Below are positions 26,106 through 30,994 of a stretch of DNA of 64,000 nt, piece after piece. Source of the DNA: an uncultured Acidimicrobiales bacterium. Lineage in GTDB: Bacteria > Actinomycetota > Acidimicrobiia > Acidimicrobiales > Bin134. The stretch is taken from contig OX638350.1 in assembly GCA_951813325.1 (NCBI GenBank), positions 1,413,029 to 1,477,028 of the forward strand, written 5' to 3'. How positions within the stretch are numbered: position 1 is the stretch's first letter; the number at the start of each line of letters is the position of its first letter. Both the position numbers and the translations under genes were made by a program. A model generated the notes under the pieces. That model was not told where the DNA came from and searched no databases. It saw only the letters and a program-made list of their open reading frames with translations.

Positions 26106-27653
26106 GTGCAGCCGGGACAGTGCTTCGACACCATCGTCGTGGGCGGGGGTTCGGCCGGGTCGGTTCTGGCGGCCCGCTTGTCAGAGGATCCGGCCCGCGG
26201 CGTGCTCTTGCTGGAAGCCGGTCCCGACCATGGGGCCCGCCTGCCCCCAGAACTGGCCGATATCAGGGTCTCGTCGCATCCCGAACACGATTGGGGCGAT
26301 GAGGTGCGCTTGCCCGGTGGGAGGATCCAGCCGTATCCCCGAGGGCGGGTGCTGGGCGGCAGCTCTGCGGTGAACGGCGGTATAGCGGTGCGGGCCATGC
26401 CCGCTGACTTCGATGCCTGGGGATTCGCCGAGTGGCGGTGGGACGCCATGCTGGACAGCTATCGGCGCCTGGAGTGCGATCTCGAAGGAGAGGAGCGCTG
26501 GCACGGTCGCGCCGGGCCGCTCCCCATCGTGCGCACCCCCGAGGCTGAGCTCAACCCGGTCCAAGCGGTGTTCTACGAAGCTTGCCAAGCGGCGGGCTTC
26601 GGCTGCATCGCCGATCACAATGCACCGGATTCCCTCGGCGTGGGCCCCCTGCCCCGCAACCGCCGCGGACTGCAACGGGTGTCGGCCGCTGACGCCTACC
26701 TGACGGCCGAAGTCCGGGACCGCCCCAATCTGGAGGTGCGGGGCGACTGCCTGGCGCTGACAGTGCGCTGGAATGGCAATCGAGCCGTCGGCGTCAGCTC
26801 AGTGAGCAACGGCCGGGTGGAGACCACCTTGGCTGAAGAAGTCATCGTGGCGGCCGGGGTCGTCCAGTCGCCGATGCTGCTGTGGCGCTCCGGCATCGGT
26901 CCGGCAGCGGAGCTGGCGGGTTTGGGCATCGATGTCGTCGTCGACCGCCCCGGAGTAGGAGCCAACTTCTCTGATCACCCCGCGGTCTATTTGTTCGCGG
27001 TGCCCAAACCGCAGGTGGTGTTCCCCGAAGATGTCACCATCCAGACCCTGCTGCGGTTCACCAGCTCGTCGGGACCGGCCAACGACCTCCAATTGTTCCC
27101 CGTCGGGATGATCGACCTCTCGGCCAGCCCCGAGCGCCGGGCCGAAGCCGGCGGCAACGAGACCATCTTCGGATTCAACGCCGCCCTGCAACGGGTGGAA
27201 AGCCGGGGGTCGGTGCGGCCGGTTTCACCCGACCCGACCGATCCTCCGGCGATCACCTACCCGTTCCTGGCCCACAAGCCCGATCTCGGACGACTGGTCG
27301 AGGCGTTCGAACTCGGGCTGGAGCTGCTGTTGTCGCCTTCATACCAACAGGTGGCCCTAGGGCCGGTGTTCTTGCCCGACCAGCTCACCCGCGATGATCT
27401 GTTGGCCCATGTGTTTGCCCGCCATGTGGCCTTCTACCACGGTGCAGGTACCTGCGCCATGGGCTCAGCCGACGAACCCGCCGCGGTGGTCGGCCCCTAT
27501 GGCCAGGTGTGGGGGACCGAGGGGCTGAGAGTATGCGATGCCTCGATCATGCCCGAGACTCCGAGGGCCAATACCAATTTGAACGTCATCGCGGTGGCCG
27601 AGCGGATGGCCGAGTTGATCTCGGCGGGCCCATTCAAGCTGCGCACTGGCTAA
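26106..27653 (+). CDS. GMC family oxidoreductase (choline dehydrogenase-like)
   Basis: 515 residues from GTG 26106, chosen because the FAD motif FDTIVVGGGSAGSVLAARL begins eight residues later. GMC signatures: GRVLGGSSAVNGGIAVRAMP, the VIVAAGVVQSPMLLWRSGIG block and the C-terminal FYHGAGTCAMG with His, followed by LRVCDASIMPETPRANTNLN. FAD-dependent oxidation of an alcohol; the substrate is unknown. The end overlaps the convergent alanine dehydrogenase gene by 20 bases. Confidence 0.87.
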   Translation: MQPGQCFDTIVVGGGSAGSVLAARLSEDPARGVLLLEAGPDHGARLPPELADIRVSSHPEHDWGDEVRLPGGRIQPYPRGRVLGGSSAVNGGIAVRAMPADFDAWGFAEWRWDAMLDSYRRLECDLEGEERWHGRAGPLPIVRTPEAELNPVQAVFYEACQAAGFGCIADHNAPDSLGVGPLPRNRRGLQRVSAADAYLTAEVRDRPNLEVRGDCLALTVRWNGNRAVGVSSVSNGRVETTLAEEVIVAAGVVQSPMLLWRSGIGPAAELAGLGIDVVVDRPGVGANFSDHPAVYLFAVPKPQVVFPEDVTIQTLLRFTSSSGPANDLQLFPVGMIDLSASPERRAEAGGNETIFGFNAALQRVESRGSVRPVSPDPTDPPAITYPFLAHKPDLGRLVEAFELGLELLLSPSYQQVALGPVFLPDQLTRDDLLAHVFARHVAFYHGAGTCAMGSADEPAAVVGPYGQVWGTEGLRVCDASIMPETPRANTNLNVIAVAERMAELISAGPFKLRTG

Positions 27654-28767
27654 GGCCCAGAACCTCTTCAGGGGCAATGTGGTCGAGGCCGAGCGACTCG
27701 GCCACCGCCGGCTCGGTGACCTGTCCTTGGCAGACCGACAGACCGGCCCGCAGCCCGGCATCAGACCGCATGGCCTCCGTCGGACCCAGGTCGGCCAACT
27801 TGGCCATATAGGGCAGGGTGGCGTTCTCCAATGCGAACGTCGACGTTCGGGGGACTGCGCCCGGCATGTTGGCCACGCAGTAGTGGACCACGTCGTAGGC
27901 CAGATAGGTGGGGTCGGCGTGGGTAGTGGGACGCGATGTCGCAATACAGCCGCCCTGGTCGATGGCGACATCGACGACTGCCGAGCGAGGCCGCATCTTC
28001 TTGACCAGCTCAGCGGTGACCAAACGCGGAGCCAGGGCGCCCCTGACGAGAACCGCTCCGATCACCAAGTCTGCGCCCAAAACGGCCTCTTCAAGGGCTC
28101 CTCCACTGGAGTGAAGGGTGTGCAGGCCCGAGCCGTAGCGAGAGTTCAAGTCTTCCAGCACGGAGACGTCGCGGTCGATCACCGTCACATCGGCGCCGAG
28201 CCCGATGGCCATCTGGACGGCGTTGCGACCGACCACGCCCCCGCCAATGATGACCACCTTGGCCGGCGCCACGCCGGGGACACCGCCCAGCAGCAGGCCT
28301 CGACCTCCGGCGGAAGACTCAAGACAGTGGGCGCCCGCCTGGATCGACATCCGCCCCGCGACCTGCGACATGGGCGCCAGCAGGGGCAGGCCGCCATTCG
28401 GGCCGACCACCGATTCGTAGGCGATGGCTGTGACGCCCTGGTCGATCAATTCCGCGGTCTGAACAGCATCCGCCGCCAAGTGCAGGTAGGTGAAGAGGAC
28501 CTGGCCCTGTCTCATGCGGGCCCGCTCCTCGGCTTGAGGTTCTTTGACCTTGACGATCATCTCAGCCCGGTCGAATACTTCTTCAGCCGAATCCGCGATG
28601 GAAGCGCCGTGGGCGGTGTACTCCTGGTCGGTGAATCCTGCCCCGGCGCCGCAATCGCGCTCAACGAGAACCTGGTGGCCTCTACTGGCGAGCTCGGTGG
28701 CGCCGCCGGGCGTCAACGCCACCCTCCGCTCTTCGTTCTTGATTTCTTTCGGAACCCCGATGTTCAT
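27634..28767 (-). CDS. ald: Alanine dehydrogenase
   Basis: 377 residues, the usual size. [20 protein letters not shown] is the classical start, followed by [10 protein letters not shown] with the substrate-site Lys, [10 protein letters not shown] with the catalytic His, [20 protein letters not shown] (NAD-binding) and [20 protein letters not shown]. It interconverts L-alanine and pyruvate with NAD and ammonia. The divergent Lrp/AsnC gene is the arrangement of ald/aldR in other actinobacteria, so alanine-responsive control is expected. Confidence 0.93.
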
Positions 28768-28952: not shown

Positions 28953-29414
28953 GTGACGGAATTGGATTCGATCGATCGGTCTATTCTCAACCAGCTTCAG
29001 GGGGATGCTCGCATCTCCAATGCCGAGCTAGCCGATCGGGTCGGCCTTTCCCCTTCGGCCTGCTACCGCCGGGTCCGCCGTCTGGAGGCCGACGGGGTGA
29101 TCGCCCGCTATGTCATGATCGTTGATCCGCAGGCCATCAACCGTTCTCTCGATGTCTTTGTGGAGATCTCCTTGGTGAGCCAGAGCGAGACATCTCTGCG
29201 CCAATTCGAAAGGGAGGTGGTGGAGTGCCCCGAGGTCATGTCATGCCACCTGATGGCTGGTGATGCCGACTATCTGCTCCACCTCGCGGTTGCCGATCAG
29301 CGCGACTTCGAGAGGATCCACAACCAGTACTTGTCCCGCTTCAGCGGTGTGGGCCGCCTCCGGTCGAGTTTTGCCATCCGTTCGATATGGGAGACCACTC
29401 GCCACGAGCTTTAG
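28953..29414 (+). CDS. Lrp/AsnC family transcriptional regulator (AldR-like)
   Basis: 153 residues. The N-terminal winged helix is clear (IDRSILNQLQGDARISNAEL, ADRVGLSPSACYRRVRRLEA), followed by the RAM ligand-binding domain with VVECPEVMSCHLMAGDADYL. The Arg/Tyr-rich recognition helix is standard for Lrp proteins. Because it is divergent from ald, it is probably the alanine-sensing activator. It ends nine bases before the next gene, which may be co-transcribed. Confidence 0.9.
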   Translation: MTELDSIDRSILNQLQGDARISNAELADRVGLSPSACYRRVRRLEADGVIARYVMIVDPQAINRSLDVFVEISLVSQSETSLRQFEREVVECPEVMSCHLMAGDADYLLHLAVADQRDFERIHNQYLSRFSGVGRLRSSFAIRSIWETTRHEL

Positions 29415-29423
29415 TGTCTGCCT

Positions 29424-30428
29424 ATGACCGCGCCCGCGCAACACGCCTACGACAGCTACGAAGCCCTGGTGGAGGACTATTTCGAGAGGGGATGGACCGA
29501 TGGGCTGCCTATCATGCCCCCCACCCCTGACAAGGTGGCCATGTTCTTGGAACATGCCGGGCTCTCCGGAGGTGAGGTGTTGGGCACGGTTCCCACCCGG
29601 GAGGTGATCTGCACCGCGGAGCAGGCTGCGGCGAACGCGGTCATGGCCGGCTGCCGCCCCGAGTACTTCCCTGTGGTGGTGGCCGCGGTGCGGGCTCACC
29701 TGCACCCCAAGGGCAACTGCCACTCCACCACGGGCACGCTTTCGGGCGCAGCCCAAGCGGTTGTCATCAATGGGCCCATCCGCAACGAGCTGGACGTGGC
29801 GTCGGGCGCGGGCTGCTTCGGGCCGGGGTTCCGGGCCAACGCCACCATCGGCCGGGCGCTGCGGCTGGTGATCCGCAATGTCTGCCGGGGCATCCCCGGT
29901 TTCTTGGACCGAGCGAGCTACTCCACGCCGGCCCGCTACTCTTTTTGCTTCGGGGAGAATGAGGAGGCCTCCGATTGGGCGCCGCTCCACGTCCAGCGGG
30001 GACTGGATCCCGAGCAGAGCGCGGTGACCGTCCACTCTCTGATGAAGATGGTCGAGGCGACCGATTTCACCAGCCGAAACGCCGAGGGGGTATGCGAATC
30101 CCTGGTGGCCAACATCCGGGCCAACGGCATCGCCGGGGACTCTTGGCTGGGGGAAGACGGCAACGTCGTGATCGTGATCGGCCACGAGCATCATCGCTTC
30201 TTCACCGAGGAGGGGTGGTCGAAGTCCGACATCCAGCAGTACCTTTGGCCCCGGCTCAACGCCCCGGCAACGGGCGCCGCTGATCGAATGGCTCGGATCG
30301 GCAAGCCTGAGGGCATCTTGATTGTGGCTGCCGGAGGAGCAGGCATGGGAGCGAGCTGGCTCCTGTTGCCCCATCTGGCCCTGGCCATCACGGAGCCCAT
30401 TCGCCGGCCGCGGCCGGACGCCTGCTGA
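29424..30428 (+). CDS. Conserved protein upstream of the UGSC selenoprotein, function unknown
   Basis: 334 residues, soluble, no signal peptide. Noteworthy segments: YFERGWTDGLPIMPPTPDKV, EQAAANAVMAGCRPEYFPVV, STTGTLSGAAQAVVINGPIR, a Gly/Cys-rich DVASGAGCFGPGFRANATIG, and a C-terminal GILIVAAGGAGMGASW. Two conserved-looking Cys (MAGC and GAGCFG) could be redox-active or metal ligands. It stands 17 bases upstream of the UGA-containing UGSC gene in the same direction, so the two probably form one enzyme. I do not recognise an established function. Confidence 0.7.
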   Translation: MTAPAQHAYDSYEALVEDYFERGWTDGLPIMPPTPDKVAMFLEHAGLSGGEVLGTVPTREVICTAEQAAANAVMAGCRPEYFPVVVAAVRAHLHPKGNCHSTTGTLSGAAQAVVINGPIRNELDVASGAGCFGPGFRANATIGRALRLVIRNVCRGIPGFLDRASYSTPARYSFCFGENEEASDWAPLHVQRGLDPEQSAVTVHSLMKMVEATDFTSRNAEGVCESLVANIRANGIAGDSWLGEDGNVVIVIGHEHHRFFTEEGWSKSDIQQYLWPRLNAPATGAADRMARIGKPEGILIVAAGGAGMGASWLLLPHLALAITEPIRRPRPDAC

Positions 30429-30445: not shown

Positions 30446-30994
30446 ATGACAGCCCTCATCGGCCTCGATCCCACTTCCGGCCCATTTGATCGCGCTGGCG
30501 ATCACGATTTCGCCCCTCGCCCAGCCAGCTTGGATGGCGCGGTGGTCGGGTTGGTGGCCAACGGCCTGGGCGACGGGGAGATCTTCCTGGATGCCCTGTA
30601 TGACGAGCTGGCTAAGCTGAGCGACCTGCAAGCCCCGCTGAAGGTGGTCAAGAGCTCGGTGTCGATCCCGCCTGAACCGGGCGATTGGAGCCGGTTGACC
30701 GAGGAGGCCACCGTTGCCATAACCGGGTTCGGCGGTTGAGGCAGCTGCAGTGCCCGCAGTTTGCGGGACGCAGTGGAGCTGGAGTGGGCCGGCGTTCCCA
30801 GCATTGCCATCGTGCACGAGGAGATGAGGGGTTCTGCCCAGGCCATCGCTCGAGTGAGCGGCTGCTCCGACTACGGGTTTCTCACCGTCAACTATCCCTG
30901 GGTTCCCATCGCCATCTGGTCGAAAGAGGAATGCCTAGAGCTGGCCGAGATCATGGCCCCCAAGGTCTTGGCCGCGCTGACCGGCCAAGCCTGA
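30446..30994 (+). CDS. UGSC-type selenoprotein (in-frame UGA read as selenocysteine)
   Basis: ATG 30446 leads to 97 residues ending TVAITGFGG, then TGA (30737-30739), then in the same frame GSCSARSLRDAVELEWAGVP and a normal C-terminus to 30994, giving 182 residues with Sec at 98. U-G-S-C is the signature of the known UGSC selenoprotein family, in which Sec and the nearby Cys probably form a redox pair. The downstream part is clearly coding (PSIAIVHEEMRG, ILTVNYPWVP-like GFLTVNYPWVP). A SECIS-like hairpin follows the UGA. An ordinary nonsense mutation is the alternative, but the exact motif argues against it. Confidence 0.8.
30737..30770 (+). promoter_or_regulatory. Putative bacterial SECIS element
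   Basis: Starting 13 bases after the UGA, CCCGC (30753-30757) pairs with GCGGG (30763-30767) around an apical AGTTT loop with a G in its second position. The distance and loop fit the window in which SelB-binding bacterial SECIS hairpins are found. Flanking bases allow weak extension of the stem. Confidence 0.6.

Follow-up and report, generated by a model that had tools for sequence, protein, structure and literature searches.

The gene at positions 30446–30994 (forward strand) of a 64,000-nucleotide stretch of DNA (hereafter the window), which covers positions 1413029–1477028 of a genome assembled as one contig of 3.59 Mb, adds a new member to the known but uncharacterised UGSC family. The selenocysteine (Sec) machinery of the genome, conservation of a SECIS hairpin, the existence of Cys homologues and purifying selection together make its product almost certainly a true selenoprotein. 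Very probably it forms an obligate two-protein module with a 334-residue protein encoded just upstream, and we tentatively put forward this pair as a new class of two-subunit Sec-dependent reductases, distant from GrdB and PrdB, with an unrelated substrate subunit, found in many phyla and expanded, in some Chloroflexota, into over 100 paralogous Sec genes, which would make theirs the largest selenoproteomes known. UGSC proteins rank among the most abundant selenoproteins of aquatic metagenomes and have been without assigned function since their first description; with the partner and the kinship with GrdB/PrdB, what was an 'unknown thioredoxin-like protein' becomes a two-subunit enzyme open to testing, and the conserved partner, this kinship and the extreme amplification make the system worth following.

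The in-frame UGA and its SECIS hairpin

The reading frame is broken solely by the TGA at 30737–30739 (forward strand), at the U of a U-G-S-C motif, and continues for 84 codons to a final TGA at 30992–30994, exactly as the first-pass annotation had described. Read through, it encodes 182 amino acids with Sec at residue 98 and Cys at residue 101, which fits the U-x-x-C criterion of Pfam family PF24696. This whole-protein model matched with an E-value of 1e-38 and 133.7 bits against a cut-off of 25, in an alignment spanning the UGA. The equivalog model NF041046 ('UGSC family (seleno)protein') scored 87.2 bits, short of its cut-off of 125 bits, and the window protein is thus regarded as a UGSC-domain relative outside this NCBIfam equivalog. 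With the family as described (PF24696; NF041046; PMC2398784) it shares the position of the UGA, the second Cys, the occurrence of Sec and Cys forms, and a distribution in aquatic bacteria. Of 119 relatives, 117 likewise have Sec or Cys in place of the U and a Cys three residues on, and the closest relatives, judged by the UGSC locus, were Acidimicrobiia MAGs, the marine group Sva0996 among them.

The first-pass annotation had pointed to a lack of Sec machinery, or to relatives with a sense codon for another residue at position 98, as evidence that would count against Sec; neither was borne out. The genome of the window encodes a tRNA-Sec (67.5 bits, called tRNA-SeC by ARAGORN), a SelB scoring 275 bits, above the NCBIfam cut-off, a full-length SelA reading frame adjoining selB (recognised by reading its sequence, with no family score), and a SelD (L035, G000:C1:2952029–2952973) that is itself a selenoprotein with an in-frame UGA in a G-U-A-G motif. 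Among the 119 homologue matches, the codon at the Sec site was UGA in 110 and Cys in 7; the single Gln and single Met cases were partner-fused copies that had lost the second Cys as well. Cys-form genes were L087 and L115 (Sphingomonadales), L111, L133, L136, L137 and L117. In the 13 reference genomes followed up, SelB was above cut-off in all 12 with UGA-type UGSC genes and was not found in the one with the Cys form only, a Sphingomonas MAG (G405), which suggests that Sec was lost there while the module was retained. The tRNA-Sec model scores weakly on tRNA-Ser, and hits of about 40–50 bits were left out of the count; the top hits in G405 and in a Chloroflexota MAG discussed below were tRNA-Ser according to ARAGORN.

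All six UGSC genes in the genome of the window carry UGA at the same place. The codon is retained in three close relatives, with 86–94% amino-acid identity 3′ of it, and comparison with these three gave a dN/dS of about 0.06–0.10 for the codons after the UGA, similar to the part before it; to judge from these rates, the codons 3′ of the UGA are under purifying selection. A genuine stop codon or a sequencing error, followed by a decayed frame or a separate reading frame, is an exceedingly improbable explanation: nothing speaks for it beyond the UGA itself, and against it stand the conservation of UGA at this position in five paralogues and in some 100 homologues, the low downstream dN/dS, the covariation of the SECIS described below and the Sec machinery. 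The same observations on paralogues and homologues, dN/dS and covariation rule out read-through or a pseudogene. General reassignment of UGA is ruled out as well, since the UGSC gene and the partner gene of the window both stop at TGA. The view that Sec use in this kind of organism would be notable holds as to its reality, but such use is less surprising than had been supposed, UGSC proteins being among the commonest selenoproteins of ocean (GOS) metagenomes, with 255 Sec and 21 Cys forms (PMC2398784).

A hairpin, CCCGC-AGTTT-GCGGG, had been noticed starting 13 bases after the UGA, and both its position and its interpretation were upheld. The apical hairpin (30753–30767, forward strand) folds as a CCCGCA/UGCGGG stem (30753–30758 with 30762–30767, six of six pairs formed) closed by a GUU loop (30759–30761); counted from the U of the UGA, these are stem positions 17–22 with 26–31 and loop positions 23–25. 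Minimum free energy prediction extends the element by a lower stem to 30744–30774 (forward strand). Folding of 30737–30775, as the first-pass annotation had suggested, gave −18.1 kcal/mol (z −2.2), and the segment 30725–30800 a z of −4.0. In a set of 104 distinct Sec genes drawn from many phyla, each of the six stem pairs forms in 91–98%, a value that drops to 39% or less when the pairing is slid by one base, and 5.68 of 6 pairs are formed on average as compared to 3.85 under a synonymous-codon null. Compensatory variation was evident at pairs 18–30 (GC, GU or CG), 19–29 (UA, GU or CG) and 21–27 (C-G in 70 genes, G-C in 32). The loop nucleotides G23 and U24, which correspond to the loop positions needed in E. 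coli fdhF as the SelB contacts (PMC8659212), were found in 95% of the 104 genes, versus 13.6% (maximum 22%) in 200 synonymous resamplings. Where Sec genes have a Ser codon at +7, it is AGT in 85 of 85 cases, whereas at other places in these genes AGT accounts for 7% of Ser codons; Cys forms have TCG or TGC/TGT at this place, none of their four Ser codons being AGT. This nucleotide conservation identifies the hairpin as a genuine SECIS of the bacterial type, and the sequences of the Cys homologues are without it. No Rfam model matched the hairpin. Two of the six UGSC copies in the genome of the window (L010 and L014) have CCG in the loop in place of GU, and recoding of their UGA may rely on this variant loop or on a variant recognition.

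The partner family and the two-gene module

The partner gene (29424–30428, forward strand), a reading frame of 334 codons, ends 17 bases 5′ of the UGSC start, as had been reported. It is preceded at a distance of 9 bases by a gene for an Lrp/AsnC-family regulator (28953–29414, forward strand; PF01037/PF13412), from which an alanine dehydrogenase gene (27634–28767, reverse strand; PF01262/PF05222) diverges. The order regulator-partner-UGSC is common to loci L037, L038 and L039, where the dehydrogenase is also retained, and is absent in L040. In this lineage the transcription unit probably begins with the regulator gene, the arrangement with the divergent alanine dehydrogenase being retained in the closest relatives only.

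The selenoenzyme operon suggested for the two genes is not a local peculiarity: it is a conserved module, with six copies in the genome of the window and occurrences across many phyla. Six members of the partner family are encoded in the genome, one beside each of the six UGSC genes. When searched from UGSC outward in 396 genomes of the phylum, a same-strand partner lay no more than 1 kb away in 33 of 33 fetched genes. From the partner outward, in a public genome collection, UGSC adjoined in 81 of 92 cases, and 5 of the 11 partners without it lay no more than 400 bases from where the available sequence ends. The gene order was partner-UGSC in 78 and UGSC-partner in 36 of 114 pairs, and seven single-chain fusions were found. 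This near-obligate pairing and the fusions are the basis for reading the pair as a two-subunit enzyme. In the literature (PMC2398784), UGSC is a single protein, likely thioredoxin-like, whereas here it appears as half of a two-gene module and with a different predicted fold. The GOS study mentions UGSC fused to a domain termed 'Unknown_1' (PMC2398784), which, as far as that description goes, may be the same family as the partner.

Neighbourhood comparison found no third conserved gene of the module and no adjacent electron donor, and none of the viral contigs encodes the partner. A Nitrospinae genome (bin107) with 15 partner and 8 UGSC matches contains four partner genes in tandem (G406:C15:58898–63073).

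Predicted fold, kinship with GrdB and PrdB, and possible chemistry

The structural model of the UGSC protein (mean pLDDT 91.7) has the order b-a-b-a-b-Sec-a-b-a-b-a, with Sec after the third strand. Its top Foldseek matches were flavodiiron proteins with flavodoxin-type domains, the matches being generic (best Z 9.7, Foldseek TM about 0.4), and no thioredoxin chain was among the structural matches listed. The strand-helix order of the model is flavodoxin/Rossmann-like, which differs from the thioredoxin fold suggested in earlier work. Among solved structures, none related by sequence to UGSC, to the partner or to a GrdB was found.

Profiles of actinobacterial GrdB (15 sequences) and PrdB-like proteins (12 sequences), read through the UGA, were compared with a profile of 80 UGSC proteins. 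The profile–profile probability was 93% over 88 columns, with Sec aligned on Sec, and 82% when the UGSC motif was masked; reversed or shuffled controls reached at most 1.6% and 56 unrelated families at most 4.3%. None of the 80 UGSC proteins matched PF07355, the Pfam GRDB model, which stops directly ahead of the Sec codon. The seed reading frames had apparently been cut at UGA, leaving the C-terminal part of the family out of view, and a search with this model is blind to similarity past Sec. These comparisons make remote homology between UGSC and the Sec domain of GrdB/PrdB likely, UGSC probably being a distant relative of their catalytic domain and not a GrdB or PrdB by membership. The likeness to GrdB (PF07355) and PrdB comprises Sec placed after a strand (with x-x-Cys following in most), a similar helix, a GIP-strand and a PHP-type stretch. 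The differences are an N-terminal region that does not align, the lack of GrdA, GrdC or GrdD neighbours, and a partner unrelated to GrdE. With a profile probability of 0.1% against GrdE, the partner was rejected as a GrdE-like pyruvoyl subunit, and there is no support for a pyruvoyl group that would activate the substrate.

Two further observations concern the GrdB/PrdB group itself. The genome of the window encodes a PrdB-like marine selenoprotein of the GRDB superfamily (L146, G000:C1:1802700–1803900), with the motif U-P-L-C and split by UGA, next to an amidohydrolase gene; unlike UGSC, it stands alone, without a partner-family gene. Glycine reductase-like clusters were present in actinobacterial genomes (L177, L179–L188), two of them in the same class, and their GrdB motif was U-G-T-G/S and not U-G-T-C, the second Cys being missing.

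The partner is larger and better conserved than UGSC, with invariant Asp26, Arg144 and Glu178, and 90 members gave no convincing sequence match in Pfam, NCBIfam or the PDB. Its predicted structure (pLDDT 93.5) matched known folds weakly: likeness was seen to class I fumarase, cyanuric acid hydrolase and YjgF in the PDB, with no Foldseek match at E ≤ 0.001 and a best Z of 6.0. Genes around the modules are catabolic, encoding amidohydrolases, transporters and acyl-CoA enzymes.

Combined, these features point to the following mechanism. SelB with Sec-tRNA-Sec would bind the hairpin 14–28 bases 3′ of the UGA, and selenocysteine would be inserted at residue 98 of a predicted flavodoxin/Rossmann-like alpha/beta protein, at the N-terminal end of a helix, with Cys101, three residues further on, as the resolving cysteine. 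This protein and the one encoded upstream would constitute the two-subunit enzyme suggested by pairing and fusions, in which the Sec selenolate would attack a small substrate that the partner holds or activates and cleave a bond reductively, as in glycine and D-proline reductase; by analogy with GrdB/PrdB, to which the homology is remote, a selenosulfide formed with Cys101 would then be returned to the reduced state by a donor of the thioredoxin type. A single chemistry acting on many substrates is suggested by the large number of diverged paralogues within individual genomes. In this explanation as a whole, that of a selenoprotein in a two-subunit Sec-dependent reductase, we have moderate confidence; the reductive bond cleavage taken by itself is proposed tentatively.

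Two other functions were weighed. UGSC could be a thiol-disulfide or peroxide oxidoreductase, in which a Sec-x-x-Cys selenosulfide cycle reduces peroxides or the disulfides of proteins or small molecules, a role consistent with the UxxC motif, the conserved second Cys and the likely thioredoxin-like fold expected in the GOS paper (PMC2398784). The confident model, however, shows a flavodoxin/Rossmann-type order, the profiles link UGSC to GrdB/PrdB, the near-obligate partner is of an unclassified family, and more than 100 diverged copies in one genome would ill suit a generic redox helper, so that this role appears rather unlikely. Somewhat less likely still, the pair could be a Sec-dependent lyase, isomerase or electrophile or metal detoxification enzyme, in which Sec acts, for example, as nucleophile or metal ligand with no net reduction and the partner is the principal catalytic subunit. 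The size, conservation and invariant residues of the partner, the likeness of its predicted structure to the folds of class I fumarase and cyanuric acid hydrolase, and the catabolic context are in keeping with such an activity, but these fold matches are weak, and the Sec-Cys pair is kept nearly always, as is usual for redox cycling.

Amplification in a Chloroflexota genome

The module is extremely amplified in a 5.0-Mb Chloroflexota MAG (JACPQD01, NC_groundwater_644_Ag; G397, loci L205–L244). Matches in the whole MAG numbered 132 for UGSC and at least 150 for the partner. In the 0.79 Mb examined, there were 125 UGSC domains, of which 118 had UGA at the site, all 118 being distinct, and a partner lay close by for 122 of the 125, many of these pairs forming tandem arrays on contigs as long as 359 kb. 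Compared with its closest paralogue, a gene showed a median identity of 70%, and only two exceeded 90%, a divergence that argues against strain mixtures. Some of the UGSC subfamilies in this MAG are without the GU loop.

SelB is present in JACPQD01; a tRNA-Sec was not found in it, nor were SelA and SelD in the 0.79 Mb examined, so the count of at least 118 needs confirmation. General UGA reassignment was ruled out here also, TGA being an ordinary stop that ends 245 of 695 long reading frames. Published bacterial maxima are 57 selenoproteins in Olavius algarvensis Delta 1 and 63 in a Methylomirabilota MAG (PMC13188914), likewise counts of UGA genes in metagenome-derived genomes; the at least 118 distinct UGA genes of a single family in JACPQD01 are about twice the latter (PMC13188914). 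Should the count be confirmed, some bacteria exceed the supposed upper bound of selenium use about twofold, and a large gene family in such genomes relies on UGA recoding, with standard gene callers halving such genes. The six modules in the genome of the window and the more than 100 in this one point to a widespread selenium-dependent enzyme.

A minority of UGSC domains are without Sec: about 7 of the 125 in JACPQD01 and, with the second Cys also absent, those at L055:3069–4718 and L142:1498–3144. Some of the Sec-less copies are fused to the partner, and these domains are possibly catalytically dead or regulatory copies.
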